64,000 nucleotides of DNA, taken from NCBI GenBank assembly GCA_943737045.1, contig CALSFV010000362.1, positions 186,001 through 250,000 of the forward strand, given 5' to 3'. Below, in pieces: positions 8,784 to 56,733 of the stretch. Origin of the DNA: Parapristionchus giblindavisi (lineage: Eukaryota > Nematoda > Chromadorea > Rhabditida > Diplogasteridae). Within the stretch, counting starts at the first letter, position 1. Each line of letters opens with the position of its first letter. The translations under genes and the position numbers were made by a program. The notes beneath the pieces were generated by a model. The model was not told where the DNA came from, did not search any database, and saw nothing but the letters and a program-made list of their open reading frames with translations.

Positions 8784-8856
8784 ATCGAGTCTTTCGAGAA
8801 GTATGACGCCTTCACTCCTCATATTGATTGGTCTACAGGGATGTAAACTCGACAAG
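8784..8856 (+). other. First exon-like module of the satellite (73 bp, AG...GT borders)
   Basis: The block sits between GCTTCAG and GACAAG|GTAATAC, a textbook acceptor and donor, and reads IESFEKYDAFTPHIDWSTGM before a stop in one frame. In the phase set by exon 2 (8287-8396) it would read DRVFREV and stop. The same block recurs in every monomer downstream. It may be the third exon of the neighbouring gene that became the seed of the satellite. Resemblance to an exon is seen; use as one is inference. Confidence 0.4.
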
Positions 8857-24588: not shown

Positions 24589-24773
24589 AATTATTGATTG
24601 ACCGATACCGAATAAAGATGTTTACATGTTGTTGTGATTTTAATCTTTGATCTTCTCTCAGTGCTGTATCGTATAATGATACTGTATTTGTGCTGAAGAC
24701 GAATATAATGGATTTAATTATATAGTTATCGTTTCAGATCGAGTATTTCGAGAAGTATGACGCCTTCACTCCT

Positions 24774-25745: not shown

Positions 25746-27680
25746 TTGTCGAGTTTACATCCCTGTGCACCAATCAATATGATTAGTGAAGGCGTCATAC
25801 TTCTCGAAAGACTCGATCTGAAACGATAACTATATAATTGAATCCATTATATTCGTCTTCTGCACAAATACAGTATCATTATACGATACAGCACTGAGAG
25901 AAGATCAAAGATTAAAATCACAACAACTGTAAACATCTTTATTCGGTATCGGTCAATCAATAATTCATTGTATTACCTTGTCGAGTTTACATCCCTGTAG
26001 ACCAATCAATATGAGGAGTGAAGGCGTCATACTTCTCGAAAGACTCGATCTGAAACGATAACTATATAATTAAATCCATTATATTCGTCTTCAGCACAAA
26101 TACAGTATGATTATACGATACAGCACTGAGAGAAGATCAAAGATTAAAATCACAACAACATGTAAACATCTTTATTCGGTATCGGTCAATCAATAATTCA
26201 TTGTATTACCTTGTCGAGTTTACATCCCTGTAGACCAATCAATATGAGGAGTGAAGGCGTCATACTTCTCGAAAGACTCGATCTGAAACGATAATTATAT
26301 AATTAAATCCATTATATTCGTCTTCAGCACAAATACAGTATCATTATACGATACAGTACTGAGAGAAGATCAAAGATTAAAACCACAACAACATGTAAAC
26401 ATCTTTATTAACATGTAAAAATCTTTATTCGGTATCGGTCAATCAATAATTCATTGTTTTACCTTGTCGAGTTTACATCCCTGTACACCAATCAATATGA
26501 TTAGTGAAGGCGTCATACTTCTCGAAAGACTCGATCTGAAAAGATAACTATATAATTGAATCCATTATATTCGTCTTCAGCACAAATACAGTATCATTAT
26601 ACGATACAGTACTGAGAGAAGATCAAAGATTAAAACCACAACAACATGTAAACATCTTTATTAACATGTAAAAATCTTTATTCGGTATCGGTCAATCAAT
26701 AATTCATTGTATTACCTTGTCGAGTTTACATCCCTGTAGACCAATCAATATGAGGAGTGAAGGCGTCATACTTCTCGAAAGACTCGATCTGAAACGATAA
26801 TTATATAATTAAATCCATTATATTCGTCTTCAGCACAAATACAGTATCATTATACGATACAGTACTGAGAGAAGATCAAAGATTAAAACCACAACAACAT
26901 GTAAACATCTTTATTAACATGTAAAAATCTTTATTCGGTATCGGTCAATCAATAATTCATTGTATTACCTTGTCGAGTTTACATCCCTGTGCACCAATCA
27001 ATATGATTAGTGAAGGCGTCATACTTCTCGAAAGACTCGATCTGAAACGATAACTATATAATTGAATCCATTATATTCGTCTTCTGCACAAATACAGTAT
27101 CATTATACGATACAGCACTGAGAGAAGATCAAAGATTAAAATCACAACAACATGTAAACATCTTTATTCGGTATCGGTCAATCAATAATTCATTGTATTA
27201 CCTTGTCGAGTTTACATCCCTGTAGACCAATCAATATGAGGAGTGAAGGCGTCATACTTCTCGAAAGACTCGATCTGAAACGATAACTATATAATTAAAT
27301 CCATTATATTCGTCTTCAGCACAAATACAGTATGATTATACGATACAGCACTGAGAGAAGATCAAAGATTAAAATCACAACAACATGTAAACATCTTTAT
27401 TCGGTATCGGTCAATCAATAATTCATTGTATTACCTTGTCGAGTTTACATCCCTGTAGACCAATCAATATGAGGAGTGAAGGCGTCATACTTCTCGAAAG
27501 ACTCGATCTGAAACGATAATTATATAATTAAATCCATTATATTCGTCTTCAGCACAAATACAGTATCATTATACGATACAGTACTGAGAGAAGATCAAAG
27601 ATTAAAACCACAACAACATGTAAACATCTTTATTAACATGTAAAAATCTTTATTCGGTATCGGTCAATCAATAATTCATT
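25746..27680 (-). repeat. Satellite array, minus orientation, about 8 monomers
   Basis: Same 233/253-bp monomers, reverse-complemented, with type A and type B units. The segment 26390-26560 holds a variant reading ATTCATTGTTTTACC. That matches what the giant element's two flanks form when joined, so it acts as an empty-site reference. Confidence 0.95.
27675..27680. repeat. Target site duplication, left copy (TTCATT)
   Basis: TTCATT directly precedes the terminal AGTAGTATAG and is repeated directly after the other terminus at 48333-48338. The flanking sequence on both sides is satellite. Confidence 0.85.
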
Positions 27681-27778
27681 AGTAGTATAGTGTGCAATGG
27701 AGGCCTCTTTTACCGCACTACCAAGATCAAAGGATGCCGCCAGGTCATTAATCATTTTTCATGTAAAGTCATTAATCA

Positions 27779-27847
27779 AAAGTGACAGGGTAGGGGGAGT
27801 GAAAGTGACAGGGTAGGGGGAGGGAAAGTGACAGGGTAGGGAGAGGG
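27779..27847 (+). repeat. Three 23-bp subterminal repeats (GTGACAGGGTAGGGGGAG)
   Basis: Tandem units of GTGACAGGGTAGGGGGAGGG plus AAA, with small variation in the last bases. Mirrored near 48166-48234. Subterminal tandem repeats are often transposase-binding sites, but that is inference. Confidence 0.8.
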
Positions 27848-27939
27848 AGAAGTTAATCAATAAAGCTTATTGACAGCCGCATATCAGTTTGGCAGCATAG
27901 GGAGAGGGAGAGTATATCAATCATCAAGTGCATGATAGG

Positions 27940-28100
27940 GCTTTCGCTCCGCTCAGCAGGGAGAGTAAGTTAATTAACAAGTACATGATAGGGAGAGGCA
28001 AGTACATGGCTTTCGCTCCGCTCAGCAGGGAGAGGGAGAGGGGCAGGAGAGGCAGGGGCAGGAGAGGGCTGAGCCTTCGCTCCGCTCGTCACCCCTCTGC
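27940..28100 (+). repeat. Cluster of TTCGCTCCGCTC motifs in subterminal region
   Basis: CTTTCGCTCCGCTCAGCAGGGAGAG occurs in two near-identical forms (about 27942 and 28011), and GCCTTCGCTCCGCTCGTCA at 28073. An inverted copy, TGACGAGCGGAGCGAAGGC, is at 28452-28470. This is the only markedly GC-rich sequence in the element. Mirrored at about 47913-48073. Confidence 0.8.
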
Positions 28101-28470
28101 TCAGCAGGAAGGAGAGGGAGTCTAACAGCGGGTGGCATCCCTAGTGCGGTAAAAGCAATCTCCAATGCACACGAACAATAGGAGGAGCAAAAAACAACTG
28201 TATGATAAAAAAAAATGATTAGCCTTGGATCGATCAGAGTGATAAGATCAATTGATATCTCAAAATCAAATGATAATATCACCACAATCGATCAACAAAA
28301 GGCAATCACGCACACGGACAGAGCAATAGAGAGCACAACCACACGCGACACAAAAATAAGAAAGAAATGAAGGATAAGGGGCGGAGCTTGGGTACATTAC
28401 CTTTTTATCTCTAACCTCTCTCAATGTCCTATACTCTCTCTCTCTCCCTCTTGACGAGCGGAGCGAAGGC
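28073..28470. repeat. 398-bp segment with 19-bp perfect inverted ends
   Basis: Begins GCCTTCGCTCCGCTCGTCA and ends with its exact complement. It may be a nested MITE-like insertion or a pair of protein-binding sites in opposite orientation. No target duplication is obvious. The mirror copy is at about 47537-47940. Confidence 0.6.
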
Positions 28471-29640
28471 TTGCTATGTATCTCTAACCTCTCTCATTTT
28501 GCCATACTCTCTCTCTCTTTCTATGCGTCTCTAAACTCTCTCATTTTGCCATACTCTCTCTCTTCCTATCCGTCTCTAAACTCTCTCATTTTGCCATACT
28601 CTCTCTCCCTTTCTCTGCATCTTTATCATCTCTCATTCTCTCATACTCTCTCTAGTTCTCTGTATCTTTCTCAATCTCTCTCAATTTCTCACACTCTCTC
28701 ACTTTTCGGTACTCTTTCATATTGTATTGTCTTTCTATCACTGCACTCTCTCATTTTTCACACTCTCTCCCATTGTCTGTTACAGTATCCTTTCTACTCT
28801 TTCTCCTCCTCTGTCCTTTCTCATTTTCTCACACTATCTCTCTTTATCTAACCTCTTGCCTCTATCTCTAGCCTCTCTCATTTTTGCACACTCTCTCTCT
28901 TTCTCTGTGCTCTATAATTCTTTGCATATTATATTCTCTCCCTCTTCTGCTATTTCGCACTATCTGAAGGTTAGGCCATTTGACCGTCTCTCTCTCTCTA
29001 TGGTACATGCTCTATCACAACACCATATGGTCATGCAGAGGCCGTTACCTCTCATTTATCTTTAGCAACAAAACACATCTAGAATCAGATACCGATTTGA
29101 ATAGATTTTAAAAAAACTAATATCGAGCATACAATACTTGACCAGAGTTACAGTATCTTTTCTACTCTTTAGCTTGCTCTGTACTCTTTCATTTCATCGC
29201 ACACTCTCTCCTTCTCTGCATCTCCAACCTCTCCATATTTTACATACTCTCTCTTGTTCTGTGCTCTCAACTTTTTCACACACTCTATTTCTCTCCACTA
29301 TCTTATTTTCTCACACACTTTCTCTTTCTCTGCACTTTCTTTGGATCTTCTACTCTCAGCAGCTGTTTTGCAATAGCTGCCAGATATTTGAATGGAAAAT
29401 CTCTCTAGCCCTGTAGCTCTTGCCACACCATATGGTCATGAATAAATTCTCCTCTATCATCATTTTACACACTCTCTACTATAGTACGCTATTTCTATGC
29501 TCTCTCTTCATTTTGTATGTTTTTTATAGTCTCTCTTCATTTAGCACACTCTATCCTATAGTACTGTACTTCTCTTAACTCTCTTCGTTTCTCTCCTCAT
29601 TTTCTTTTGCTCTTTCTCTTTTACTCTATTCATCTCTCTC
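28404..29640 (+). repeat. CT-rich degenerate minisatellite in left arm
   Basis: Repeats of CTCTCTCATTTTGCCATACT with a period of 45-47 bp near 28490-28600, grading into irregular CTCTC-rich sequence. Apparent Ser/Leu/His/Thr-rich proteins here come from base composition and are not called. Weaker CT-rich patches recur to about 30000. Confidence 0.85.
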
Positions 29641-30049
29641 GCTCTATCGTTTGCAACAAAGGAACATATTTGAATAATAGTTGTATTTAAATAAGATTGC
29701 ATAATAATCATCAGGATGTTAAGATCAAATGATAAACCCCAATAGATAACATATGGTGACACATAGAAACCGACTAACCGGGGGCTACAAGACACCCTAT
29801 CACACATGACCTAAGACCGATGATAAATAGACTGTACTCAATCTCCTTCCTTACGCTATTTCTCTGGTCTCTTATCATTTTTCTCACTCTCACTGATGCT
29901 TCTCTGATCTCTATTTATCTCTCTCGCTCTCTCTTTACACGACTTCTCTCGCAATTTCTTCATTTCTCTAGCTATCTCTTGCAACAAAGCGCGCTTTGTT
30001 GGAATAGTAGATGTAATTAAATCATAAAGATACTTTCTCACTTAGGCTC

Positions 30050-33000
30050 TTGGCTCTTTTCTCCCTGTGCACGCACTATGCCATCTTTCTCTTTCACGAC
30101 AGCCAAGATATTTGAATAATCTCATCATTAGGTTAAAGTATGCCTCTCTTGATCCATATGGTAGGACACTTGAATAGCAACAGTAATTTATTTATAGGAA
30201 TGTCATCTCTCCCTCTATAATACTCTCTCCTCTACGCATACATACTATATCTCTGGCTTCTTCTTTTCACACAATGTCTCTTTCTAGCAAAAACCTTTCC
30301 ATGCCATCCTCAAATGCTAGGATCTCCCATCTTTTTTTCGATTCTCCATCTCAACCTCTCTCTGGCATCAGTACGCTATTCCCAATATGAGCATGAGATT
30401 TGAACTGTTCTCCTTCTTCTATCTATACAAGTTATTGATTAATCTCTTTAGGTGTCGTCTCTTCTGCATTCTTCTCCTTCCCCTTTGAGAGTTTTCATTC
30501 AATTCGATTCTCCTCATCCACTTCCTACCTAGTCCTTAAAAATTAATAATTGAATACCTTCAACAACCAAACCATATGTTTATATCGCTTATTTCATCTC
30601 TCACAATGAAAAGAACAACTATCATAAACACGGATAACATCTCAGCCTAATGACGCCTAAATTTGGGATGTATCTTCTCCCATGTAATTATATATTACAA
30701 ACGATGTATCTATCATTTCTAATTAGTTTTGCGGACTATCTTTTAGATTGAATTCATTATTGAATCATGCTGAAGCTGGTGCGCGGATTATAATAGTATA
30801 ATTTAACTTTGATTATATTTCACTATAACGCTACTGCTACCAACCTGGTGGTGGTTGTGTTGGAGGATTAGAACTTTTGAACATCAAAGATCAATTTGGG
30901 CATACATACATAGATCTTTAAGTTACACATTTTTGTTTTGTTTCAGCCTGTTTTTGTAGTAATAAAATGATGAAGCTGGCATCAATTCTCTCTCTAACCT
31001 TTCAATTGTTCAAGAGATTCATGAACGATGTACTATGTGCTGAGAGTGATCGCATTACACGTTGAACCAAACTTTTATAGTATTAGTACATTAGCAAATA
31101 TTAGCCGCTCCATTGTCTATGTTGGATAGCCCGTGCCACTTATATCGTTAAAGTTGGGCATTTGATCCTCCTTTAGAGCAAAAATTTTTTAAATTGATTT
31201 TAACCATATGAATGATGCTTTCTAACCGTAGGCATAGTATTGCCAACAAGAGTTATTTCTAGCCAACCGCAATACATACGATAAAAAGATACTAGTTGAT
31301 TAACATTCTTCTGAACTAGCATGTTTCAAAATCTTTTTATTGATCTTTGGACAATTCGTATCTGATTAACATTGAATTTAATAATTTCTTCATAGAACTA
31401 TCTCACATGGCTTTAACGGTATCTCTAATTTTATGTTCTCACAAATCCGTCACATAACATTTTACTGGGAGAAGAAATGAGAGGCATTGAAGTCTTTAGT
31501 AAATTGAAGGCACAAGTGTTCATATTGACTTTTCAAGTAGAGAATATACATGCAAATGAAAACGCGTAATCACGTTAAGGAAACTCAGTTATGGGATTTA
31601 AACAACTGAAGAAGAAAGAAGGGGGTTTTCTAGTAATAGGCATGACTTGATTAACTAAAATACTTCATATAACGTTTAAAATCATTTTACTATTACTTTA
31701 CGAACAATCTGACGAATTTCGCTTTTTGAATTTAAGACTTGCTTAGCACTCAATGATTAACAACATGAAGTTGATATCACCATAAACATTTTTCAAGGAA
31801 GATTATTTTTTAAATATTATACCAAACAATACTGATCAACACGAGAAATGGAGTGCAAGAAGAAAGGAATATAATTGTACACGAATGGGAACGACTATCC
31901 CTTCAAAGTGAAGGAATAAATAAAAACCAACCTACCGTAAATCCATGAAAAATATATAAAAGTGCTAAAAGAAGTCTGCTTGCGCACTAACACCATAGAT
32001 ACCCTTGTGCCATTACTATAATTTATAACTTAGAAACGAAGTGGTAAGCCGGATCACGGTGCCTGCCTTTATTATTAAAATACATCAGGGGGGGGGGGAT
32101 AATGTGCATACGTTTGAAAGCACCAGCCTGCATATGTCGATTATATTGTTAAGTCTTTGAAAGTAAACTAAGAATCTTACAGTTTCCATTCTTACGCAAT
32201 GACAAAAGACAAAATAAGAGTGAAGATACAATGATCATTTTAGAAAGGACTCATCTATCCACTATTATTGTATAGTACCAAGACAGCTGTTAAGCTATAT
32301 ACTTTAACGTAAATGTTTTAGAATAGTGGTAAATAAAAAGGGCAATCAACAATGGTCCAATCGAGAAAGTAAGCGTCATCAGCCTTTTACCAGTTCTGCT
32401 GGTTTGTATATGTTGATTCATCGCAACGATATTGTATCTAGAAGCAGATCGGCTAGACATCAGAATGGAAGAGTCATATGAAAATATTTAGATATAGACC
32501 AACGGTTTTTTAATAGATATCTATAATGTTATGGTAATTTCACCACTGAAATCGCATTTGATCTAATAAGAGGTGTTTGGCTAAAAACTGGCGCTCTGGT
32601 CGAGCAATTTCATTTGTTAGTGATATGAGCTCATTAATTTTGGTTCATGCACATTGAATAACGTTAAATACTCGTATATGCAGCACTGTCTATGTCAACA
32701 TAAGGTACTAGGTCTTCCTATCGTTGCAAAAGCCCTTTAAAGTAGCACTTCTTAACACATTCAAAGCATTCTACATATAGTCGCCACCACCTCCACTCTA
32801 ATAATCTGCTTGTAGATTGTGAATAATGGATACAAACTATCTGAAACGATTCCTATACTTACTTAGTTACTTAGCAACGATTCCTATCGATAGAGTAAAT
32901 CACAATATAAAGTATAAACATATAATGAAAGACTCAAAAAGAGGCATACTTGAATAAAATTAAATTGTCAGTGAATGTACATTGCAGTGAGCGTCCACCA

Positions 33001-36000
33001 CCGTCATAAACAGAGATATCCCTCAGGAAGCGTAGTCATGCATTAGGTTTTTTGATCTTGCACATATTTGCGCTTTGTGTCTTTACACCAGACATTCATT
33101 GTAGCACCGCATAGTATCGTGCAATCTGATTTTCTATCTATATTACAATACTGCCGTTAATGACATGTTCGAATACTGAGAGAGACAGGACAAGTGAACT
33201 AAGAAGGAACTAACAACAATTGAGCTCTATGTACACCTCAGGATATGTCTCAATATTGCCATTAGAGTAATTGATCTCTGAATGATCGAAAGAAATAGGT
33301 ATATTAATGTTATGCAGGAGAAATTACCGTTTTATGAATGAAGAAACATCTCTAGCAAGCATGGGAATGTAGAACAGGACAACCAAATAATTTTCTATCT
33401 AGCTCAGATTAATGAAAGCATCGAGAAAGACATACTTGTATAAAACCTAAGGCGATGTACAATGAAATATTGGCGAACAACCTTACTGATGAGCTATGTT
33501 ACGAAATACAATCATCACATACAGAGATGTGCGCTATGAAGCGTAGTCATGTATTAAGTGGCTTGATCTTGTACATATTTGGGGTTATCTGTACACCAAA
33601 CATGTATTGTTGAACAACGTAGAATTGTTTGAGCAGATCTGTTATATCTTTATTGCGGTACGTTGCTGAAATGTTTGAACACTTCTCCCAAAATAACTTC
33701 TATTTCCTATGACTTATTGTAACATAATCTTTTTTTAATGAAAACACAAAACATTGCACCGTGTCCTATCTTTACATACAGCTAATCATCGGACAATGGA
33801 GAGGTACACATATCACGTGATATGACGCACATGACATAAACTCCTTTTTTCATAGATAAGTGTGAGTATTGAAGACAATTCCAATTTATTACCAAAGTCT
33901 AGAATTTGACCAAATTAAGTAGAGCTAATATGTTCAACGCATAGAGATGTTACATCTAACGACATAAAAGTCATGTATGTATTGATGTTGTTGTGGTCAG
34001 TTTATGGATATTTCTACCTTGGAGAGGTTTTAGGTTGTCCTAGGAGTTGTGTGTCTGACAGGAGAAATTGCGCAACTGAGCGCATGAGGTGATGGATAAA
34101 GATAGTCGGGAAAGGGTTCAATGGCCATGATAGTTGAAACACAGGTCTGTGATGAAATTGATGAGTATTGAATTGCTGTAGATCACAAAGCGGCAGATCA
34201 GGGATGGACTTTGGTATTTCTTTAATCAGTGCGTGAAAACTCACAATAGTGGATTTTGATGGAAGACATAAGCGCACGCATGCAGATGTTATAGTGTTAT
34301 TGGTTAGCTTAGAATATCTAAAGTGGGATGGGATGACATTTTTCAAATGTTTTTCACATTACATCACCTAGAATAATTTCCAATGTCCCAACCGTTCCTT
34401 CATATGCTAATACTGGTCGCTCAATCATGAGGGATTTGATGTACTGTCGAAAGAGATATTTCTGTAAAAATCGACAATCATTGTTCTTAGGATTATTGTA
34501 AAGATGTCTACAAGTTGAATAATGTAGGCGAAAGAGCTTCCTCTCTATTAATTACTAGTTAGGTTCCTTCCTAGCCTATTTGCAGCGAGAACTCTGTCTT
34601 TCTCCGACATCAATGTATACATCAACGTCATCCAATCTTTATACAGCAATGAAAATTGTCCACAATGAGTAGCACAACCATACATGAACATACTAGAAAC
34701 ATTACAACGCTGGTCTTCTGAGAGCATACATGTAATTGTCAAAACATGCGTCATTGTATCATTTGAGACAATCAGCGTACATGATTTTACCGTGATATTC
34801 TCACACTCACAAAAATATCTAACCACCTTGTGGCATAAGAGAAGATATGTGAAGAATTGTCATGGAATCTTTACTACACAGTGAGTTATTCCTAATTAAG
34901 GAAGGAAATTTTTGGGGGAGTGTATGGAATTATGACACGACGTAATTATACGTTGAACTGTAGTATTATATGATTTTAAATCGATAATTCATGGAATTGA
35001 TGAATCATTTATGACGTCTTGTATGAATTCACACACTGCCTGTTGATAGCATCGAACAATTATTAGTGAATTACTGAAACAAGTAGGGATGTTCCATTTG
35101 TTGTTGCATTGTGAAAACGTTGTCGACATATTGATCATAGTAACGAAAGTATACACAAAAGCAACCATATTCTAATGGTACATGTCGAAATCTAGCTGGT
35201 GGATAGATAATTATGGTAATTCAAAAATTTCTATCGAATACAATATTGTATTCTAGCATTTGTCTTCTCAATATAATGGTGTGATCTTTCATACAATGAT
35301 ACCATTCACATGCTATTCACTTGAAAAGCCTATCGAATAGATGTACTTCGTACAGAAGGGCTAGAGCATCACAACCTACTCAATCCTCATTATTTCATCA
35401 AAATTAGAGTGATCCGTATATAGTGGACTCAGAAACACTATTGAGATTAATCGTGACTGTATTGCAGAGTATTCAGGACACACATACACACATATTTCAA
35501 GCTTCAGGCACACGACTATACACTCCAAAATAATTGAAAATAATCGGATACGCATGTGACTTCTATGCAAGAAACACTCCCCCCCCATATGTAACTTTCT
35601 ATAGATTTTGAGTATGGATAGGTGGGTTGCTTGTTTAGGGTTAACTTTGCCCTTGGTTATCAAATACGTATGAATGAATTGTACCAGTAAATATAAATGT
35701 GTACATATCATTGAATATGTTAACGCGATGCCTATTCAGCGATAACTCACCCACAGTTTAACACCTTTCTATAAGATTTTAGTGGTTCAATCTAGGACAA
35801 TATTAAGATTCAAAAAATCGTACATCAACAAGTTGATATGTACACCGGCACTGTGACATAGCATCAATGAGACTATCTCTTTTACCGAAGCCTTCAAACC
35901 CCTCTCATCAGCGTATTAGTCAAGACATTGGTGAACACCGTGTAAATTACGTCAAGACTAGAATAGAACAACAACAACCTTACGAATATTAGTGTATAAT

Positions 36001-37328
36001 TGATTGGAGGTACTTAGATTGCATGTGTGGTGCCATATATAACTAATTTCATATGCCATCTTTTATTTCATGCTTGAACATATCAATTATAGAATTAACG
36101 GCACTATCTATTTGCGCACTATCATGAGAAACCAGCTTCTTCGGTCAACTCCAAACTGCCTGTCGATCTTCTCGGATTTGTGAAATCGAAGACGCGCATA
36201 TGAAGATCAACGTAACTGTTCTGGGACTGTCGGAAGTAAGAAAGGCTTTTCCCCCATGCACATCAGAGTCCTACTCTTGATAAATGTGCTTTCAAATCTA
36301 TTTGCGTCATTGAAGCGTGGCATGCTAATCTTATCTGCCGTTCCGATTTTAGCATATGATCACTGTTACCAGTACATCCACATGTTGTCTATGATGTTTA
36401 TTCCAAAAGATCAACCTGCAACACATGTTGCGTACCAAACGAAAACACATAGAAACATTAACAAGTCTTTGATAGGCTCATAAATATGACATGTTTATCA
36501 TGGATGGCTACTAATTTAAAAGTAAAAAGATGCCAACTTGCGTATAGACGTGTCCGTTTGCCGTGGCCCTAAGTCTGCTTGAAAACTTGTTTCAAGATAC
36601 ACATGACAACAGCTATATCTTGCATGGTTAACTGTCTATCATGATATGCATATATAGCCCACATTATGATTTACCTAAGAGCGGAATGTGATTTTTTTTT
36701 TATATTTTCGTCTCTCTAAATCCACATATAGCTCATATAGGTGGGTTTGTTCCAACTTCTTTCAGTTCTTCTATAGCTATTTACACGAATACTCGCCATA
36801 TGTGGCATAATTATAGTAGAGGAGGGATTCATCTATGCATTACCAGCCTCAAGCTAATAGAAAACCAGAGTTATTTTGAGGAACGATATTTTGAGGAACG
36901 CCCCAACTCTAGGGTCGTTTGTTTTCGCCAATTCACCTAATATAAAGGGGAAATCGATCGCTATTTCTTATTCTTTCGTCTCTGAGAGATATTTAATTCC
37001 ATTACGAAAACGTTTAAACTCAATATTGTTCATTCTAGAAGTGTAAACAATTATAATACTTCTAAATATATTGCACTGGTTTATTTTCGTCTCGATAAAG
37101 GCCCTAATAGCTCATATAGATGGATTTGTTCCAACTTCTTCCAGTTCTTTTATACCTTTTTTCTCTAATACATCATATCTGACGTAATTTATACGGGAGG
37201 TTTTCATCTATGCATTACTAACCTCAAGCTTAGAGAACACCAGAGTTCCATTGACTTCATGATAATTTGAGGTGCGCCTCCTCGCCTGAGAAAGACAATC
37301 TAGAATCCTCTATGTTTTATGTACAACA
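30050..37328. other. AT-rich interior of left arm, no gene recognised
   Basis: About 7.3 kb of roughly 65 percent A+T. Open frames at 34014-34346, 34548-34826, 35376-35711 and 36256-36483 are 75-111 codons. Two of them lack ATG starts, and the 35376-35711 frame is broken in the other arm by the longer G run. No polymerase, integrase or capsid motifs were read on either strand. The same content is mirrored at 38677-45957. Confidence 0.5.
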
Positions 37329-38676
37329 CATGCGGCGTGTGTAAACAAATATCCTGCTTCAATATTATACTAAAACTTCACCAAATTATTAATTTTTGAC
37401 ACTTCAACTGTATGTTCTTAAAAACATTCATTCTATCTCTATATTCTAGAAAACTCTTAGTGATTGGATCGTTTATTTTGCAGTTGTACACGCTTTATCA
37501 ATATTAGCAAGGAAAATGTCAATGGAGTATCCGAAGTATCAACAAGAATAGGTCTTCTTTCTATAGTTGTACTTCTTTCGTATACTCATATTTAACTATA
37601 GACGGCGTTCTTTGGATTTGAGATTTCTTTTTTTTAGATTTTAGTACTACAAACCACTAAACTTCTACATTACTAAAGTAGGGCCAAATAAGAGGTTAGG
37701 CCTTCAGAACAGAATTGGCCTTGAATTATCACTGGCCTAGCAGTGATCTTCTGCAGGACTCCGTGTTCCTTGAACAAGGGGATGTACCTCTTTTACTTTT
37801 TGCTACACTTGGATTCGAGATTTTGTCACAACAGACTTTTTCGGTAGCTGTATCGCACTTGGAGGATCTTAAGAGATGTTTATTTTGATTCAATTTTTTA
37901 TAAAGACAATGAGTTCTAATCTGTGTGAAATCATGTCCTGATAGCCCAGTACTGCACTGCAGTGGTTAGGGCTGGATGCGGCTGGTGGATTGTTATGGTT
38001 ACTTGCATGTACTTTTCCAATAACACATATAACCTGAAGCGATCATTCAAGTGAGTGATTCGTTTTTACTTTTTTTTTTCATTTTTTGCTGATGTTTGTT
38101 GTTTATGAAAGTGAGTGGGTTACTTCTGCGAAATACACCAAGAATCACGATAGATAAAGAATATTGTGAAAACCAAGAAACTAAAACTATCAAATCGAAT
38201 CAAATCAAATCATTTATTCCTGTAAAAGAATGGTACGGGATGATATTCAGTACTTCTTATCATGTTACACGAGGTCAGGAATGACTAGTCTTCTGCTGCC
38301 AAAGAAGTCGGTACAGTGTTTGTCGTTGGGTTGGGAAACACTTGAGAAGATAACTTATAATCCAAATGGAGTTCAGCGAAACCTAGTAGCACGGGAAAGA
38401 TGAACTAGTAGACACTTGCAACAATTGGAGATACGGCCGTCTTGTTGCGTAGACTGTTGCAGGGCTTCACCTCTATCCACAAATTATGGAGCGAAAGTCA
38501 TTCCGACCGCTCATCATGAATGGAAATAGAAGAGAAACTATATATACTACGTCATTTCAATAAGATTATACTAGAACATGAGACATCAATTATCCCACTG
38601 CTCCACCCTCCCCCAGGATCTTATGTAGCTACTCTAATTGTCTCATATAAGAGACACTCAATGGTTAAGCGCTGCA
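37329..38676. other. Unique central spacer of the palindrome
   Basis: The only part of the element without a mirror copy (about 1.35 kb). It is AT-rich with no open frame above 62 codons. It contains a LINE-tail-like sequence at 38191-38218 and a short palindromic GCACTGCAGTGG motif near 37959. If the element ever had its own genes, this spacer is too small to hold them. Confidence 0.7.
38191..38300 (-). repeat. Possible LINE 3' end (AATAAA plus GATTT repeats)
   Basis: On minus the sequence reads AATAAATGATTTGATTTGAT and onward, a poly(A) signal directly followed by a GATTT-type microsatellite. CR1-group LINEs commonly end in such short tandem repeats rather than poly(A). The upstream extent of the fragment is unclear. 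No link to the endonuclease fragment at 24774-25745 can be shown. Confidence 0.35.
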
Positions 38677-41600
38677 TGTTGTACATAAAACACAGAGGAT
38701 TCTAGATTGTCTTTCTCAGGCGAGGAGGCGCACCTCAAATTATCATGAAGTCAATGGAACTCTGGTGTTCTCTAAGCTTGAGGTTAGTAAGGCATAGATG
38801 AAAACCGCCCGTATAAATTACGTCAGATATGATGTATTAGAGAAAAAAGGTATAAAAGAACTGGAAGAAGTTGGAACAAATCCATCTATATGAGCTATTA
38901 GGGCCTTTATCGAGACGAAAATAAACCAGTGCAATATATTTAGAAGTATTATAATTGTTTACACTTCTAGAATGAACAATATTGAGTTTAAACATTTTCG
39001 TAATGGAAATAAATATCTCTCAGAGACGAAAGAATAAGAAATAGCGATCGATTTCCCCTTTATATTAGGTGAATTGGCGAAAACAAACGACCCTAGAGTT
39101 GGGGCGTTCCTCAAAATATCGTTCCTCAAAATAACTCTGGTTTTCTATTAGCTTGAGGCTGGTAATGCATAGATGAATCCCTCCTCTACTATAATTATGC
39201 CACATATGGCGAGTATTCGTGTAAATAGCTATAGAAGAACTGAAAGAAGTTGGAACAAACCCACCTATATGAGCTATATGTGGATTTAGAGAGACGAAAA
39301 TATAAAAAAAAATCACATTCCGCTCTTAGGGGGGGGGGCTGTGGGCTATATATGCATATCATGATAGACAGTTAACCATGCAAGATATAGCTGTTGTCAT
39401 GTGTATCTTGAAACAAGTTTTCAAGCAGACTTAGGGCCACGGCAAACGGACACGTCTATACGCAAGTTGGCATCTTTTTACTTTTAAATTAGTAGCCATC
39501 CATGATAAACATGTCATATTTATGAGCCTATCAAAGACTTGTTAATGTTTCTATGTGTTTTCGTTTGGTACGCAACATGTGTTGCAGGTTGATCTTTTGG
39601 AATAAACATCATAGACAACATGTGGATGTACTGGTAACAGTGATCATATGCTAAAATCGGAACGGCAGATAAGATTAGCATGCCACGCTTCAATGACGCA
39701 AATAGATTTGAAAGCACATTTATCAAGAGTAGGACTCTGATGTGCATGGGGGAAAAGCCTTTCTTACTTCCGACAGTCCCAGAACAGTTACGTTGATCTT
39801 CATATGCGCGTCTTCGATTTCACAAATCCGAGAAGATCGACAGGCAGTTTGGAGTTGACCGAAGAAGCTGGTTTCTCATGATAGTGCGCAAATAGATAGT
39901 GCCGTTAATTCTATAATTGATATGTTCAAGCATGAAATAAAAGATGGCATATGAAATTAGTTATATATGGCACCACACATGCAATCTAAGTACCTCCAAT
40001 CAATTATACACTAATATTCGTAAGGTTGTTGTTGTTCTATTCTAGTCTTGACGTAATTTACACGGTGTTCACCAATGTCTTGACTAATACGCTGATGAGA
40101 GGGGTTTGAAGGCTTCGGTAAAAGAGATAGTCTCATTGATGCTATGTCACAGTGCCGGTGTACATATCAACTTGTTGATGTACGATTTTTTGAATCTTAA
40201 TATTGTCCTAGATTGAACCACTAAAATCTTATAGAAAGGTGTTAAACTGTGGGTGAGTTATCGCTGAATAGGCATCGCGTTAACATATTCAATGATATGT
40301 ACACATTTATATTTACTGGTACAATTCATTCATACGTATTTGATAACCAAGGGCAAAGTTAACCCTAAACAAGCAACCCACCTATCCATACTCAAAATCT
40401 ATAGAAAGTTACATATGGGGGGGGGGAGTGTTTCTTGCATAGAAGTCACATGCGTATCCGATTATTTTCAATTATTTTGGAGTGTATAGTCGTGTGCCTG
40501 AAGCTTGAAATATGTGTGTATGTGTGTCCTGAATACTCTGCAATACAGTCACGATTAATCTCAATAGTGTTTCTGAGTCCACTATATACGGATCACTCTA
40601 ATTTTGATGAAATAATGAGGATTGAGTAGGTTGTGATGCTCTAGCCCTTCTGTACGAAGTACATCTATTCGATAGGCTTTTCAAGTGAATAGCATGTGAA
40701 TGGTATCATTGTATGAAAGATCACACCATTATATTGAGAAGACAAATGCTAGAATACAATATTGTATTCGATAGAAATTTTTGAATTACCATAATTATCT
40801 ATCCACCAGCTAGATTTCGACATGTACCATTAGAATATGGTTGCTTTTGTGTATACTTTCGTTACTATGATCAATATGTCGACAACGTTTTCACAATGCA
40901 ACAACAAATGGAACATCCCTACTTGTTTCAGTAATTCACTAATAATTGTTCGATGCTATCAACAGGCAGTGTGTGAATTCATACAAGACGTCATAAATGA
41001 TTCATCAATTCCATGAATTATCGATTTAAAATCATATAATACTACAGTTCAACGTATAATTACGTCGTGTCATAATTCCATACACTCCCCCAAAAATTTC
41101 CTTCCTTAATTGGGAATAACTCACTGTGTAGTAAAGATTCCATGACAATTCTTCACATATCTTCTCTTATGCCACAAGGTGGTTAGATATTTTTGTGAGT
41201 GTGAGAATATCACGGTAAAATCATGTACGCTGATTGTCTCAAATGATACAATGACGCATGTTTTGACAATTACATGTATGCTCTCAGAAGACCAGCGTTG
41301 TAATGTTTCTAGTATGTTCATGTATGGTTGTGCTACTCATTGTGGACAATTTTCATTGCTGTATAAAGATTGGATGACGTTGATGTATACATTGATGTCG
41401 GAGAAAGACAGAGTTCTCGCTGCAAATAGGCTAGGAAGGAACCTAACTAGTAATTAATAGAGAGGAAGCTCTTTCGCCTACATTATTCAACTTGTAGACA
41501 TCTTTACAATAATCCTAAGAACAATGATTGTCGATTTTTACAGAAATATCTCTTTCGACAGTACATCAAATCCCTCATGATTGAGCGACCAGTATTAGCA

Positions 41601-44600
41601 TATGAAGGAACGGTTGGGACATTGGAAATTATTCTAGGTGATGTAATGTGAAAAACATTTGAAAAATGTCATCCCATCCCACTTTAGATATTCTAAGCTA
41701 ACCAATAACACTATAACATCTGCATGCGTGCGCTTATGTCTTCCATCAAAATCCACTATTGTGAGTTTTCACGCACTGATTAAAGAAATACCAAAGTCCA
41801 TCCCTGATCTGCCGCTTTGTGATCTACAGCAATTCAATACTCATCAATTTCATCACAGACCTGTGTTTCAACTATCATGGCCATTGAACCCTTTCCCGAC
41901 TATCTTTATCCATCACCTCATGCGCTCAGTTGCGCAATTTCTCCTGTCAGACACACAACTCCTAGGACAACCTAAAACCTCTCCAAGGTAGAAATATCCA
42001 TAAACTGACCACAACAACATCAATACATACATGACTTTTATGTCGTTAGATGTAACATCTCTATGCGTTGAACATATTAGCTCTACTTAATTTGGTCAAA
42101 TTCTAGACTTTGGTAATAAATTGGAATTGTCTTCAATACTCACACTTATCTATGAAAAAAGGAGTTTATGTCATGTGCGTCATATCACGTGATATGTGTA
42201 CCTCTCCATTGTCCGATGATTAGCTGTATGTAAAGATAGGACACGGTGCAATGTTTTGTGTTTTCATTAAAAAAAGATTATGTTACAATAAGTCATAGGA
42301 AATAGAAGTTATTTTGGGAGAAGTGTTCAAACATTTCAGCAACGTACCGCAATAAAGATATAACAGATCTGCTCAAACAATTCTACGTTGTTCAACAATA
42401 CATGTTTGGTGTACAGATAACCCCAAATATGTACAAGATCAAGCCACTTAATACATGACTACGCTTCATAGCGCACATCTCTGTATGTGATGATTGTATT
42501 TCGTAACATAGCTCATCAGTAAGGTTGTTCGCCAATATTTCATTGTACATCGCCTTAGGTTTTATACAAGTATGTCTTTCTCGATGCTTTCATTAATCTG
42601 AGCTAGATAGAAAATTATTTGGTTGTCCTGTTCTACATTCCCATGCTTGCTAGAGATGTTTCTTCATTCATAAAACGGTAATTTCTCCTGCATAACATTA
42701 ATATACCTATTTCTTTCGATCATTCAGAGATCAATTACTCTAATGGCAATATTGAGACATATCCTGAGGTGTACATAGAGCTCAATTGTTGTTAGTTCCT
42801 TCTTAGTTCACTTGTCCTGTCTCTCTCAGTATTCGAACATGTCATTAACGGCAGTATTGTAATATAGATAGAAAATCAGATTGCACGATACTATGCGGTG
42901 CTACAATGAATGTCTGGTGTAAAGACACAAAGCGCAAATATGTGCAAGATCAAAAAACCTAATGCATGACTACGCTTCCTGAGGGATATCTCTGTTTATG
43001 ACGGTGGTGGACGCTCACTGCAATGTACATTCACTGACAATTTAATTTTATTCAAGTATGCCTCTTTTTGAGTCTTTCATTATATGTTTATACTTTATAT
43101 TGTGATTTACTCTATCGATAGGAATCGTTGCTAAGTAACTAAGTAAGTATAGGAATCGTTTCAGATAGTTTGTATCCATTATTCACAATCTACAAGCAGA
43201 TTATTAGAGTGGAGGTGGTGGCGACTATATGTAGAATGCTTTGAATGTGTTAAGAAGTGCTACTTTAAAGGGCTTTTGCAACGATAGGAAGACCTAGTAC
43301 CTTATGTTGACATAGACAGTGCTGCATATACGAGTATTTAACGTTATTCAATGTGCATGAACCAAAATTAATGAGCTCATATCACTAACAAATGAAATTG
43401 CTCGACCAGAGCGCCAGTTTTTAGCCAAACACCTCTTATTAGATCAAATGCGATTTCAGTGGTGAAATTACCATAACATTATAGATATCTATTAAAAAAC
43501 CGTTGGTCTATATCTAAATATTTTCATATGACTCTTCCATTCTGATGTCTAGCCGATCTGCTTCTAGATACAATATCGTTGCGATGAATCAACATATACA
43601 AACCAGCAGAACTGGTAAAAGGCTGATGACGCTTACTTTCTCGATTGGACCATTGTTGATTGCCCTTTTTATTTACCACTATTCTAAAACATTTACGTTA
43701 AAGTATATAGCTTAACAGCTGTCTTGGTACTATACAATAATAGTGGATAGATGAGTCCTTTCTAAAATGATCATTGTATCTTCACTCTTATTTTGTCTTT
43801 TGTCATTGCGTAAGAATGGAAACTGTAAGATTCTTAGTTTACTTTCAAAGACTTAACAATATAATCGACATATGCAGGCTGGTGCTTTCAAACGTATGCA
43901 CATTATCCCCCCCCCCCCTGATGTATTTTAATAATAAAGGCAGGCACCGTGATCCGGCTTACCACTTCGTTTCTAAGTTATAAATTATAGTAATGGCACA
44001 AGGGTATCTATGGTGTTAGTGCGCAAGCAGACTTCTTTTAGCACTTTTATATATTTTTCATGGATTTACGGTAGGTTGGTTTTTATTTATTCCTTCACTT
44101 TGAAGGGATAGTCGTTCCCATTCGTGTACAATTATATTCCTTTCTTCTTGCACTCCATTTCTCGTGTTGATCAGTATTGTTTGGTATAATATTTAAAAAA
44201 TAATCTTCCTTGAAAAATGTTTATGGTGATATCAACTTCATGTTGTTAATCATTGAGTGCTAAGCAAGTCTTAAATTCAAAAAGCGAAATTCGTCAGATT
44301 GTTCGTAAAGAAATAGTAAAATGATTTTAAACGTTATATGAAGTATTTTAGTTAATCAAGTCATGCCTATTACTAGAAAACCCCCTTCTTTCTTCTTCAG
44401 TTGTTTAAATCCCATAACTGAGTTTCCTTAACGTGATTACGCGTTTTCATTTGCATGTATATTCTCTACTTGAAAAGTCAATATGAACACTTGTGCCTTC
44501 AATTTACTAAAGACTTCAATGCCTCTCATTTCTTCTCCCAGTAAAATGTTATGTGACGGATTTGTGAGAACATAAAATTAGAGATACCGTTAAAGCCATG

Positions 44601-47600
44601 TGAGATAGTTCTATGAAGAAATTATTAAATTCAATGTTAATCAGATACGAATTGTCCAAAGATCAATAAAAAGATTTTGAAACATGCTAGTTCAGAAGAA
44701 TGTTAATCAACTAGTATCTTTTTATCGTATGTATTGCGGTTGGCTAGAAATAACTCTTGTTGGCAATACTATGCCTACGGTTAGAAAGCATCATTCATAT
44801 GGTTAAAATCAATTTAAAAAATTTTTGCTCTAAAGGAGGATCAAATGCCCAACTTTAACGATATAAGTGGCACGGGCTATCCAACATAGACAATGGAGCG
44901 GCTAATATTTGCTAATGTACTAATACTATAAAAGTTTGGTTCAACGTGTAATGCGATCACTCTCAGCACATAGTACATCGTTCATGAATCTCTTGAACAA
45001 TTGAAAGGTTAGAGAGAGAATTGATGCCAGCTTCATCATTTTATTACTACAAAAACAGGCTGAAACAAAACAAAAATGTGTAACTTAAAGATCTATGTAT
45101 GTATGCCCAAATTGATCTTTGATGTTCAAAAGTTCTAATCCTCCAACACAACCACCACCAGGTTGGTAGCAGTAGCGTTATAGTGAAATATAATCAAAGT
45201 TAAATTATACTATTATAATCCGCGCACCAGCTTCAGCATGATTCAATAATGAATTCAATCTAAAAGATAGTCCGCAAAACTAATTAGAAATGATAGATAC
45301 ATCGTTTGTAATATATAATTACATGGGAGAAGATACATCCCAAATTTAGGCGTCATTAGGCTGAGATGTTATCCGTGTTTATGATAGTTGTTCTTTTCAT
45401 TGTGAGAGATGAAATAAGCGATATAAACATATGGTTTGGTTGTTGAAGGTATTCAATTATTAATTTTTAAGGACTAGGTAGGAAGTGGATGAGGAGAATC
45501 GAATTGAATGAAAACTCTCAAAGGGGAAGGAGAAGAATGCAGAAGAGACGACACCTAAAGAGATTAATCAATAACTTGTATAGATAGAAGAAGGAGAACA
45601 GTTCAAATCTCATGCTCATATTGGGAATAGCGTACTGATGCCAGAGAGAGGTTGAGATGGAGAATCGAAAAAAAGATGGGAGATCCTAGCATTTGAGGAT
45701 GGCATGGAAAGGTTTTTGCTAGAAAGAGACATTGTGTGAAAAGAAGAAGCCAGAGATATAGTATGTATGCGTAGAGGAGAGAGTATTATAGAGGGAGAGA
45801 TGACATTCCTATAAATAAATTACTGTTGCTATTCAAGTGTCCTACCATATGGATCAAGAGAGGCATACTTTAACCTAATGATGAGATTATTCAAATATCT
45901 TGGCTGTCGTGAAAGAGAAAGATGGCATAGTGCGTGCACAGGGAGAAAAGAGCCAAGAGCCTAAGTGAGAAAGTATCTTTATGATTTAATTACATCTACT
46001 ATTCCAACAAAGCGCGCTTTGTTGCAAGAGATAGCTAGAGAAATGAAGAAATTGCGAGAGAAGTCGTGTAAAGAGAGAGCGAGAGAGATAAATAGAGATC
46101 AGAGAAGCATCAGTGAGAGTGAGAAAAATGATAAGAGACCAGAGAAATAGCGTAAGGAAGGAGATTGAGTACAGTCTATTTATCATCGGTCTTAGGTCAT
46201 GTGTGATAGGGTGTCTTGTAGCCCCCGGTTAGTCGGTTTCTATGTGTCACCATATGTTATCTATTGGGGTTTATCATTTGATCTTAACATCCTGATGATT
46301 ATTATGCAATCTTATTTAAATACAACTATTATTCAAATATGTTCCTTTGTTGCAAACGATAGAGCGAGAGAGATGAATAGAGTAAAAGAGAAAGAGCAAA
46401 AGAAAATGAGGAGAGAAACGAAGAGAGTTAAGAGAAGTACAGTACTATAGGATAGAGTGTGCTAAATGAAGAGAGACTATAAAAAACATACAAAATGAAG
46501 AGAGAGCATAGAAATAGCGTACTATAGTAGAGAGTGTGTAAAATGATGATAGAGGAGAATTTATTCATGACCATATGGTGTGGCAAGAGCTACAGGGCTA
46601 GAGAGATTTTCCATTCAAATATCTGGCAGCTATTGCAAAACAGCTGCTGAGAGTAGAAGATCCAAAGAAAGTGCAGAGAAAGAGAAAGTGTGTGAGAAAA
46701 TAAGATAGTGGAGAGAAATAGAGTGTGTGAAAAAGTTGAGAGCACAGAACAAGAGAGAGTATGTAAAATATGGAGAGGTTGGAGATGCAGAGAAGGAGAG
46801 AGTGTGCGATGAAATGAAAGAGTACAGAGCAAGCTAAAGAGTAGAAAAGATACTGTAACTCTGGTCAAGTATTGTATGCTCGATATTAGTTTTTTTTAAA
46901 ATCTATTCAAATCGGTATCTGATTCTAGATGTGTTTTGTTGCTAAAGATAAATGAGAGGTAACGGCCTCTGCATGACCATATGGTGTTGTGATAGAGCAT
47001 GTACCATAGAGAGAGAGAGACGGTCAAATGGCCTAACCTTCAGATAGTGCGAAATAGCAGAAGAGGGAGAGAATATAATATGCAAAGAATTATAGAGCAC
47101 AGAGAAAGAGAGAGAGTGTGCAAAAATGAGAGAGGCTAGAGATAGAGGCAAGAGGTTAGATAAAGAGAGATAGTGTGAGAAAATGAGAAAGGACAGAGGA
47201 GGAGAAAGAGTAGAAAGGATACTGTAACAGACAATGGGAGAGAGTGTGAAAAATGAGAGAGTGCAGTGATAGAAAGACAATACAATATGAAAGAGTACCG
47301 AAAAGTGAGAGAGTGTGAGAAATTGAGAGAGATTGAGAAAGATACAGAGAACTAGAGAGAGTATGAGAGAATGAGAGATGATAAAGATGCAGAGAAAGGG
47401 AGAGAGAGTATGGCAAAATGAGAGAGTTTAGAGACGGATAGGAAGAGAGAGAGTATGGCAAAATGAGAGAGTTTAGAGACGCATAGAAAGAGAGAGAGAG
47501 TATGGCAAAATGAGAGAGGTTAGAGATACATAGCAAGCCTTCGCTCCGCTCGTCAAGAGGGAGAGAGAGAGAGTATAGGACATTGAGAGAGGTTAGAGAT

Positions 47601-48332
47601 AAAAAGGTAATGTACCCAAGCTCCGCCCCTTATCCTTCATTTCTTTCTTATTTTTGTGTCGCGTGTGGTTGTGCTCTCTATTGCTCTGTCCGTGTGCGTG
47701 ATTGCCTTTTGTTGATCGATTGTGGTGATATTATCATTTGATTTTGAGATATCAATTGATCTTATCACTCTGATCGATCCAAGGCTAATCATTTTTTTTT
47801 ATCATACAGTTGTTTTTTGCTCCTCCTATTGTTCGTGTGCATTGGAGATTGCTTTTACCGCACTAATGATGCCACCCGCTGTTAAACTCCCTCTCCTTAG
47901 GCTTCCTGCTGAGCAGAGGGGTGACGAGCGGAGCGAAGGCTCAGCCCTCTCCTGCCCCTGCCTCTCCTGCCCCTCTCCCTCTCCCTGCTGAGCGGAGCGA
48001 AAGCCATGTACTTGCCTCTCCCTATCATGTACTTGTTAATTAACTTACTCTCCCTGCTGAGCGGAGCGAAAGCCCTATCATGCACTTGATGATTGATATA
48101 CTCTCCCTCTCCCTATGCTGCCAAACTGATATGCGGCTGTCAATAAGCTTTATTGATTAACTTCTCCCTCTCCCTACCCTGTCACTTTCCCTCCCCCTAC
48201 CCTGTCACTTTCACTCCCCCTACCCTGTCACTTTTGATTAATGACTTTACATGAAAAATGATTAATGACCTGGCGGCATCCTTTGATCTTGGTAGTGCGG
48301 TAAAAGAGGCCTCCATTGCACACTATACTACT
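38677..48332 (-). repeat. Right terminal inverted repeat, about 9.66 kb
   Basis: Near-perfect mirror of 27681-37328. Differences include two longer G/C homopolymers (at about 40417 and 43907), an extra 6 bp near 47899 and a G-run block at 39330-39339 in place of left-arm sequence. It holds the mirrored AT-rich interior (38677-45957), GA-rich region (46367-47603), GC-rich motif cluster and foldback end. Confidence 0.9.
46367..47603 (-). repeat. GA-rich minisatellite in right arm (mirror of CT-rich region)
   Basis: Reverse complement of 28404-29640, so the purine strand is now on plus. Same 45-47-bp degenerate period near the outer side. Confidence 0.85.
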
Positions 48333-48338
48333 TTCATT
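48333..48338. repeat. Target site duplication, right copy (TTCATT)
   Basis: TTCATT follows the terminal CTATACTACT and matches 27675-27680. Beyond it the satellite resumes as GTTTTACCTTGTCGAG, in register with the left flank. Confidence 0.85.
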
Positions 48339-56645: not shown

Positions 56646-56733
56646 TGTCGAGTCTACATCCCTGTAGACCACTCTACATCCCTGTAGACCACTCGAGTCT
56701 ACATCCCTGTAGACCACTCCCTGTAGACCACTC
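56646..56733. repeat. Scrambled joint with four CTACATCCCTGTAGACCACT copies
   Basis: Within one monomer the sequence breaks after TTTTAATCT into four copies of a short piece of the opposite strand, each containing the palindrome CTACA-TCCC-TGTAG, then resumes at TAATGGATTT. Units are partly truncated. It separates ordinary A/B monomers from the diverged C subfamily. Confidence 0.85.

Follow-up and report, generated by a model that had tools for sequence, protein, structure and literature searches.

Introduction

Copy-back or snap-back defective viral genomes, e.g., the symmetric ones of adenovirus, have one end mirrored around a short loop and an origin at both termini. Long chromosomal palindromes, such as those of the Y chromosome, undergo gene conversion from arm to arm.

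Mavericks or Polintons are large elements of 15-25 kb (PMC8097293, PMC6431247). They are flanked by a 6-bp duplication of the target (TSD), and their end motif, as described for vertebrate Mavericks, is (AGT)2//(ACT)2 or (AG)3//(CT)3 (PMC8097293). According to the same source, Maverick particles have not yet been observed, and an extracellular form of the Polinton is described elsewhere as yet to be detected (PMC7805220). In a survey of cryptophyte Polinton-like viruses, terminal repeats ranged from hundreds of bp into the thousands, and the elements retained there had repeats between 100 bp and 8 kb (PMC12220804); long repeats as such are thus known in Polinton kin. Galileo/Foldback of Drosophila includes chimeric copies and non-autonomous ones whose terminal inverted repeats have expanded; its repeats reach about 1.26 kb, its flanking sequences 7 bp, and its transposase is of the P type (PMC3573991). 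Teratorn, a fusion of a herpesvirus with piggyBac, is reported to measure 41-182 kb and to have 18-bp piggyBac-type ends and herpesvirus genes (PMC6431247).

The element discussed here lies in a 64,000-nucleotide stretch of the nematode Parapristionchus giblindavisi (contig CALSFV010000362.1, positions 186,001 to 250,000), henceforth called the window. Its 6-bp TSD, its AGTAGT...ACTACT ends, its 20,652 bp and the ends it has in common with C163, a coding element of the same genome, are those of a Maverick/Polinton. A “new element class”, as considered in the preliminary description, is too strong a term. Unlike in a Polinton, however, no genes were found in the element, and 93% of it consists of two 9.65-kb arms that change in concert, whereas the end repeats of C163 measure ~0.9 kb. 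The cryptophyte relatives differ in being coding viral elements; no mention of gene-free palindromes was found for them, and “palindrom” and “non-autonomous” do not occur in the main text of PMC12220804. In its non-autonomous and chimeric copies and in the expansion of its inverted repeats the element resembles Galileo/Foldback, but it has far longer arms, a TSD of 6 bp, Polinton ends and no transposase that could be found. Like Teratorn it is a virus-derived giant with long inverted repeats; unlike Teratorn it measures 20.65 kb, has Polinton-type ends and has no gene that was found. The snap-back defective genomes share their geometry with one copy of our collection, C45. The products described here are, in contrast, integrated into the host, and one lineage has persisted and diversified to a divergence of ~20%. 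Among the literature matches listed, no title or abstract described palindromic or fold-back Polintons; most subscription journals and preprints were not covered.

The palindrome in the window

The copy in the window, C362, occupies positions 27681-48332 and is a palindrome of two arms and a loop with the following features (coordinates, strand, description):

27675..27680, no strand: left TSD copy TTCATT, 6 bp
27681..37328, plus: left arm, 9,648 bp
27681..27695, plus: left terminus AGTAGTATAGTGTGC, with the (AGT)2 end motif as in Mavericks (PMC8097293)
27681..28653, plus: left terminal ~1 kb, homologous to the Polinton ends of C163, ~76-78% over the stretch
27779..27853, plus: 23-bp minisatellite within the left terminus
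36117..36295, plus: ~180-bp insertion in the left arm
37329..38676, no strand: single-copy loop, 1,348 bp
38677..48332, minus: right arm, 9,656 bp
39708..39886, minus: right-arm counterpart of the ~180-bp insertion
47354..48332, minus: ~1 kb at the right end, with homology to the Polinton ends of C163
48318..48332, minus: right terminus, complement of AGTAGTATAGTGTGC
48333..48338, no strand: right TSD copy TTCATT, 6 bp, a perfect match to the left one

A BLAST alignment of the two arms has 9,658 columns, 19 mismatches and 6 gap openings (99.68% identity); in a MAFFT alignment 31 columns are unequal. The palindrome is beyond chance by far, and a simple-repeat origin is likewise ruled out by an arm length of 9.65 kb. 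On re-measurement, the coordinates, the 6-bp duplication and the inverted-repeat share given in the preliminary description all proved correct. The matching 15-bp termini noted there are present, but they are merely the outermost part of the arms. The TTCATT duplication flanks the whole element, which bears out the view that the palindrome moved as one unit.

Left arm and loop contain seven stop-to-stop open reading frames of at least 90 aa, the longest of 161 aa, and none of the seven has a Pfam match above cut-off, in agreement with the earlier impression that transposition genes are lacking. Ten reading frames of C163, compared by tblastn with 28701-38676 of the window, yielded no match better than E 0.095, and coding remnants in the window arms were thus not detected by either search. 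The protein-primed DNA polymerase B (pPolB) plus rve integrase of an autonomous Polinton are not encoded by the window element. An RNA family was also considered and discarded, the window having no Rfam match at gathering thresholds. The 20-base terminus has no exact match among viral contigs.

Coding relative and family

The terminal ~1 kb that C362 has in common with C163 identifies it, as had been suspected, as a non-autonomous element of the Polinton type. C163 itself has matches to rve integrase (1.7e-10), to Pox_A32, the A32-type packaging ATPase (6.1e-10), and to Peptidase_C5, the adenovirus-type protease (1e-5). Whether full-length relatives encode pPolB and integrase had been proposed as a check; the rve integrase is there, but the pPolB of C163 is broken, its pieces lying inside the element, one above cut-off and one just below. 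Used as a query, the C163 integrase also hit integrases weakly (best E 0.0094) as well as phage transposase families (best 3.3e-7). A protein search with orf513 of C163 found one relative, P0001; its structure model is poor (mean pLDDT 49); for three other C163 reading frames, PDB sequence searches were uninformative. A decayed orf513 sits in both arms of C386 and of C30. Apart from this remnant, the Polinton ancestry of the window family can be recognised only in the ends and in short matches, and in the window copy itself only in the latter two.

Other copies of the terminus, the search for which had been proposed, do exist in the source genome. With 40 of 131 candidates scored, mid-arm sequence was found at at least 20 loci of the 251-Mb genome, at 16 of them in both orientations (the window and 15 others). 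All 17 copies examined have AGTAGT...ACTACT ends. Sixteen of the 17 paired-end copies have a perfect 6-bp TSD, and all 16 targets are different. The exception, C231, has no TSD and is flanked by sequences that are perfectly palindromic for 251 bp; these are part of a dispersed repeat. Nine copies of ~20 kb average 20,728 bp (SD 230), yet they were chosen from the 17 for their closeness to 20 kb, so that a packaging limit cannot be tested with this mean. The remaining eight copies measure 21,851 bp (C135), 26,874 bp (C660), 22,896 bp (C231), 32,468 bp (C51), 49,098 bp (C79), 41,360 bp (C216), 21,598 bp (C163) and 16,936 bp (C45).

The boundary between arm and loop is homologous within ~10 bp in C362, C135, C660 and C30; in C386 and C232 the correspondence is looser, to within tens of bp. 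C362 and C135 have the ~180-bp insertion in each arm, and C660, C232, C386 and C30 have it in neither; C135 and C660 also have one-sided insertions. C232 and C386 have the C362-type first 90 bp at both termini (90/90 and 89/90), while their near relatives C6, C348 and C51 match this type at 56-57 of 90 positions.

Identity of the arms

Within 13 of the 14 copies tested, the arms differ at 0-5 sites per 1.1-3.7 kb. Between copies the difference amounts to up to ~20%. Judged from these sequences, the arms evolve in concert, i.e., they stay near-identical within a copy while the family has diverged. Six copies were compared over the mid-arm for copy-specific changes. The ratio of those present in both arms to those in one arm was 114:1 in C386, 140:1 in C232 and 101:1 in C30; it was 6:4 in C660, 0:1 in C362 and 0:2 in C135. 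The gaps scored were symmetric between the arms in 14 out of 14 cases, which represent fewer than 14 events, some being adjacent or common to C386 and C30. The arms of C30 differ by 2 substitutions in 9.5 kb. C206 and C6, which are 98.8% identical to each other, have no arm difference in 1.7 kb within either copy.

C20 is a mosaic exception. In the middle, its arms differ at 635 of 3,180 sites (20%), and its TSD is intact; homogenisation is therefore not obligatory at each insertion.

In C232 and C135 the arm differences are clustered. The longest clean stretch was reached in only 15 of 20,000 shuffles for C232 and in 79 for C135; for C362 it was reached in 2,187 of 20,000. The clustering in C232 and C135 suits tract-wise conversion better than a single copying of the whole arm.

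Origin of the palindromes

C45 is a palindrome with 8,413-bp arms, 2 mismatches, a loop of 110 bp and an intact TSD. In C163, the stretch that matches either arm runs from 32894 to about 24440, which is the right end (97.5% over 6.4 kb); the integrase frame is open in each arm. C45 is a fresh palindrome that mirrors the right end of a C163-type Polinton, from which it follows that palindromes can arise by fold-back of a Polinton end. A mirrored parent end with a short loop was seen in C45 only; it is the only clear fold-back intermediate, and it belongs to a lineage other than the window family. The proposal of inverted repeats that grew inward and pushed out the core is, as worded, not supported; C45 shows a mirror duplication instead. 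For the window family itself, stepwise expansion is possible; an example may be C255, whose arms measure 3.9 kb and whose core measures 7.7 kb. C543 (7.7-kb arms, 99.77% identity, an integrase match) was rejected as a Polinton palindrome, since AGT ends are absent at the edges of its arms.

The element is probably a fold-back (snap-back) product of a Maverick/Polinton, integrated and non-autonomous, and its family a set of long-lived satellites mobilised in trans. One end would have been copied twice when a strand, nascent or displaced, folded back in the course of protein-primed replication outside the chromosome. Each terminus of the product would retain an origin as well as a recognition end for the integrase; it could thus be replicated and integrated in trans by the pPolB and integrase of a Polinton and, in consequence, could lose its own genes. 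The arms may then anneal to each other while the intermediate is single-stranded or a hairpin, and either mismatch repair or switching of templates would make them equal again in kilobase tracts. The least certain part of this explanation is the stage at which the arms are homogenised, be it the replicating form or the inserted copy.

The same origin could be combined with arm-to-arm gene conversion in the chromosome, by which the arms would be kept identical after insertion. The clustered differences in C232 and C135 and the tract-wise mosaicism of C20 are what one would expect from it. The pair C206 and C6, however, would demand fast homogenisation at many loci, and the one-sided insertions of C135 and C660 persist, as do the diverged arms of C20. 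We consider this alternative unlikely.

Slightly less likely still is the same origin without any continuing conversion: the palindrome would be remade from half an element at each transposition, and the arms would simply be young. That fold-back happens is evident from C45, and near-perfect arms, as in C30 and C45 (2 differences in 8.4 kb), are in line with recent formation. Yet copies that are ~25% apart in BLAST identity agree closely in their arm/loop boundary, which calls for either one founding event or a reused fold-back point. The partial clustering of arm differences and the unequal arms of C20 also speak against it.

It is improbable that the element is retained for a 9.6-kb dsRNA hairpin transcript, which would give rise to small RNAs silencing Polintons with the same ends. 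What fits is geometry only, i.e., the near-identical arms and the terminal ~1 kb in common with the coding Polinton, and mobility alone explains dispersal with TSDs. That the palindromes are assembly artefacts, be it from missed-adapter reads or from collapsed inverted duplicates, is hardly credible: C231 without its TSD and with its palindromic flanks would suit this idea, but 16 of 17 copies have distinct flanks with matching 6-bp TSDs, in some copies substitutions and one-sided insertions (C135, C660) set the arms apart, and boundaries are homologous at several loci.

Biological meaning

The fold-back origin and the concerted arms may be read jointly. Polintons would shed adenovirus-like snap-back genomes, some of which integrated in this genome, lost their genes and became hereditary satellites that are still mobile; replication as a giant hairpin would copy the halves onto each other, so that they behave as one locus. 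We advance this joint reading tentatively, as somewhat short of an even bet.

For annotators the family implies a caution: a long non-coding palindrome of about 20 kb may be a Polinton satellite. The family also suggests that the Polinton machinery tolerates near-perfect inverted repeats of 10 kb, and it is one of the rare cases in nature in which one can test how identity is maintained in very long palindromes. Integrated fold-back genomes with TSDs are an expected by-product of a linear, protein-primed replicon and are, therefore, indirect evidence for a free replicating form. If the joint reading is true, the family would represent an endogenous lineage of the defective-interfering kind, whose palindromic genome is heritable and homogenises itself; it would also be a molecular record of Polintons replicating as free, protein-primed linear DNA.

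The palindrome and its relatives

The element at 27681-48332 (C362, the window's own copy) is a palindrome with two arms.

27681-37328: left arm, 9,648 nt
38677-48332: right arm, 9,656 nt

The arms are 99.68% identical (9,658 aligned columns) and enclose a loop of 1,348 bp; TTCATT immediately flanks the element on both sides. It is embedded in a satellite array with a unit of 233-253 bp. Such arrays make up most of the window beyond the element (8654-24773, 25746-27634, 48333-59220, 59529-64000), with segments in opposed orientations; 48333-55385 matches its own reverse complement at 93.9%. The flanks of another copy, C6, look similar by eye. Left arm and loop contain seven stop-to-stop ORFs of at least 90 aa (maximum 161 aa), none with a Pfam match above cut-off, and Rfam at gathering thresholds yielded no match in the window. 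Showing none of the Polinton genes, the element is, as far as its sequence tells, a non-autonomous member of that group. The loop itself may contain pieces of smaller palindromic elements: 37507-37801 and 37894-38190 recur on contig C216 (1157945-1162407 and 1446451-1449848) as inverted pairs, 3.4-4.5 kb apart. At 38189-38535, some 350 bp of the loop resemble numerous dispersed loci (77-84% identity) and are probably an unrelated short interspersed repeat.

The preliminary description had called for a search for further copies of the left-end 492 bp. These exist in the source genome (251.4 Mb, 703 contigs): scoring 40 of 53 candidates gave at least 75 matching stretches, many as inverted pairs. 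With a mid-arm query, at least 20 loci were found, at least 16 of them with both orientations; these counts are lower bounds, as 40 of 131 candidates were scored.

Both orientations: C362, C135, C660, C46, C386, C79, C51, C231, C216, C232, C6, C348, C206, C30, C268, C20
Single orientation: C484, C483, C91, C266

Both ends were examined in 17 copies, i.e., 15 of the 16 two-orientation loci (C268 omitted), the coding Polinton C163 and the coding palindrome C45. All 17 start with AGTAGTATAG, and 16 have a perfect 6-bp duplication, in 16 distinct sequences. The sole exception is C231, in which one flank is the exact reverse complement of the other over 251 bp, the outer 201 bp being part of a dispersed repeat. 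Duplications of 6 bp and (AGT)2//(ACT)2 ends are described for Mavericks in PMC8097293, and a typical length of 15-25 kb in PMC6431247; in these published respects, duplication, end motif and size, Maverick/Polinton elements agree with the window family.

Relationship to coding Polintons

C163 (11297-32894) and the window copy have their terminal ~1 kb in common, with 76-78% identity; past this stretch, DNA similarity to the window arm is limited to short matches, among them one of 43 bp (100%) and one of 51 bp (88%). The two ends of C163 are 97% identical across 880 bp. The preliminary description had also proposed testing whether full-length relatives encode integrase and protein-primed DNA polymerase B; C163 encodes the integrase, and its polymerase is broken. 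In its interior, Pfam identifies an rve integrase (1.7e-10, with a weak chromo match of 0.09 at the C-terminus), an adenovirus-type protease (1e-5) and a packaging ATPase of the Pox_A32 type (6.1e-10). DNA_pol_B_2 is found in two pieces, one exceeding the family cut-off (28.5 bits), the other slightly under it and containing stops; single frames give a weak match only. Elsewhere, at C384:94463-96397 (minus), DNA polymerase B (PF03175) matches lie inside a 1,207-aa frame, about 12-13 kb from a Polinton-type integrase match; none of the window-terminus matches listed in the genome search is near this polymerase.

Searching the genome with the C163 integrase revealed two copies in opposite orientation on C45, each an open 534-aa frame, 97% identical to C163. 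They belong to C45:663876-680811 (16,936 bp; duplication CGTATA).

C45:663876-672288: first arm, 8,413 bp
C45:672399-680811: second arm, 8,413 bp

The arms show two mismatches and are 110 bp apart. Both represent the right end of C163, from 32894 inward to about 24440, at 97.5% across the inner 6.4 kb and 86.7% across the outer 2.1 kb. By tblastn, both contain integrase, protease, two more ORFs and the start of orf513, an ORF of C163; the Pfam scan covered the two integrases and one protease. Loop and right arm run colinearly in the order of C163, and then the sequence reverses direction. In layout, C45 corresponds to a snap-back genome, with a single end copied, folded and recopied, as in defective adenovirus and other copy-back genomes. 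C45 accordingly documents, at the level of structure, a coding fold-back palindrome that has inserted.

Other palindromic integrase elements were also seen. C255:123415-138947 (15,533 bp, ends AGTAGTATAC) is of a second, distant Polinton lineage. Each of its 3.9-kb arms (99.7% identical) has an integrase ORF (rve + chromo; Pfam run on one arm) and a second ORF, with a double jelly-roll match of 1.8e-38 in the scanned arm; an A32-type ATPase lies in the centre. Its flanks have a 19-bp direct repeat in common, with no clear 6-bp duplication. C543:10054-26463 has 7.7-kb arms (99.77%) with an integrase-like gene and additional nested inverted repeats; AGTAGT ends were not found at its edges. Integrase matches as inverted or opposed pairs, spaced by 5-39 kb, on C29, C226, C12 and C69 suggest more such elements.

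The non-coding copies retain traces of the same ancestry. A decayed piece of orf513 with stops, in the same inward reading direction as in C45, is present in both arms of C386 (tblastn 1.3e-8; 75% to C163 DNA across 103 bp) and C30 (1.0e-7). In C232, C660 and the window copy, by contrast, 49-51 bp past the terminus match the left end of C163 and so indicate that end. Taken together, remnants and match imply that the non-coding arms are at least partly Polinton-derived.

Concerted evolution of the arms

Independent evolution of the arms since a common origin should by now have made them about as divergent as the copies. Between copies, up to about 21% of aligned bases differ (C20 right arm excluded), and mid-arm BLAST identity falls to about 75%, gaps counted. 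Within copies, mid-arm pieces of 14 were compared: per 1.1-3.7 kb, the arms differ at no site in five copies, at one in four, at two in two, and at four and five in one each; C20 differs at 635 of 3,180 sites. In the tree, arms group copy by copy, except for C362 and C135, which are too similar to be separated, and C20, the arms of which take different positions.

Copy-specific mid-arm changes (found in one copy, all others of the six agreeing)
Copy: both arms, one arm
C386: 114, 1
C232: 140, 1
C30: 101, 1
C660: 6, 4
C362: 0, 1 (near-identical to C135)
C135: 0, 2 (near-identical to C362)

Larger changes behave alike. Gaps of at least 15 bp separating the window arm from C232, C386 or C30 could be scored in 14 cases, and all 14 are symmetric across arms. 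They represent fewer events, some being adjacent and two apparently common to C386 and C30; scoring covered alignable changes inward of the outer 1.7 kb, in HSPs of at least 400 bp and 70% identity. C362 and C135 have an insertion of some 180 bp in each arm; both arms of C660, C232, C386 and C30 lack it. The first 90 bp are C362-type at both termini of C232 (90/90; near relatives C6 and C348 57/90) and in C386 (89/90; near relative C51 56/90), by which measure the ends, too, change together. The position of the arm/loop boundary is homologous among copies, agreeing to about 10 bp in C362, C135, C660 and C30; for C386 and C232 the agreement is to tens of bp. These patterns demonstrate, as far as comparison of present-day copies can, that the two arms of one copy evolve together.

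C20 has an intact duplication and identical 90-bp ends, yet its arms are 9-27% apart; insertion hence does not need equal arms. Its left arm is a mosaic of C232-like (up to 98-100%) and C660-like tracts (99-100%) with a C30-like end (96%), a patchwork implying that lineages exchange sequence in kilobase tracts. Clustering of arm differences was tested in three copies: the longest clean stretch was reached by 15 of 20,000 random placements in C232 and 79 of 20,000 in C135, and by 2,187 of 20,000 in C362, i.e., without clear clustering. The clustered differences point to tract-wise conversion.

The main rival view is that the homogenising step is gene conversion in the chromosome. However, C135 and C660 still carry one-sided insertions (about 0.4 kb and 6.4 kb), which conversion after insertion has not erased. 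The outer ~1 kb of the C660 arms is just 91% alike. The 6.4-kb insertion (C660:139182-145541) is itself an inverted repeat with arms of about 2.0 kb (99.6-100%), the left one split by 0.7 kb, and by this structure another palindromic element type.

Mechanism and novelty

The separate components have precedents: Polintons and fold-back genomes are known, as are transposons with long inverted repeats, and PMC12220804 mentions Polinton-like viruses whose terminal repeats reach some kilobases. Among the titles and abstracts listed in the literature searches, none described integrated fold-back Polintons or a long-lived, self-homogenising palindromic satellite lineage. Packaging of the elements into capsids is possible; the size figure carries no weight here, since the copies behind it were selected by size.

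Polinton-type ends and insertions, and a divergent family of non-coding palindromes, are shown at the sequence level. In the preferred reading, that of fold-back Polinton satellites mobilised in trans, the element would be replicated in trans by protein priming, and its arms would pair with each other, either in hairpins or in single strands that had been displaced. They would then be equalised tract by tract through template switching or repair, and the Polinton integrase of elements like C163 or C45 would carry out integration.
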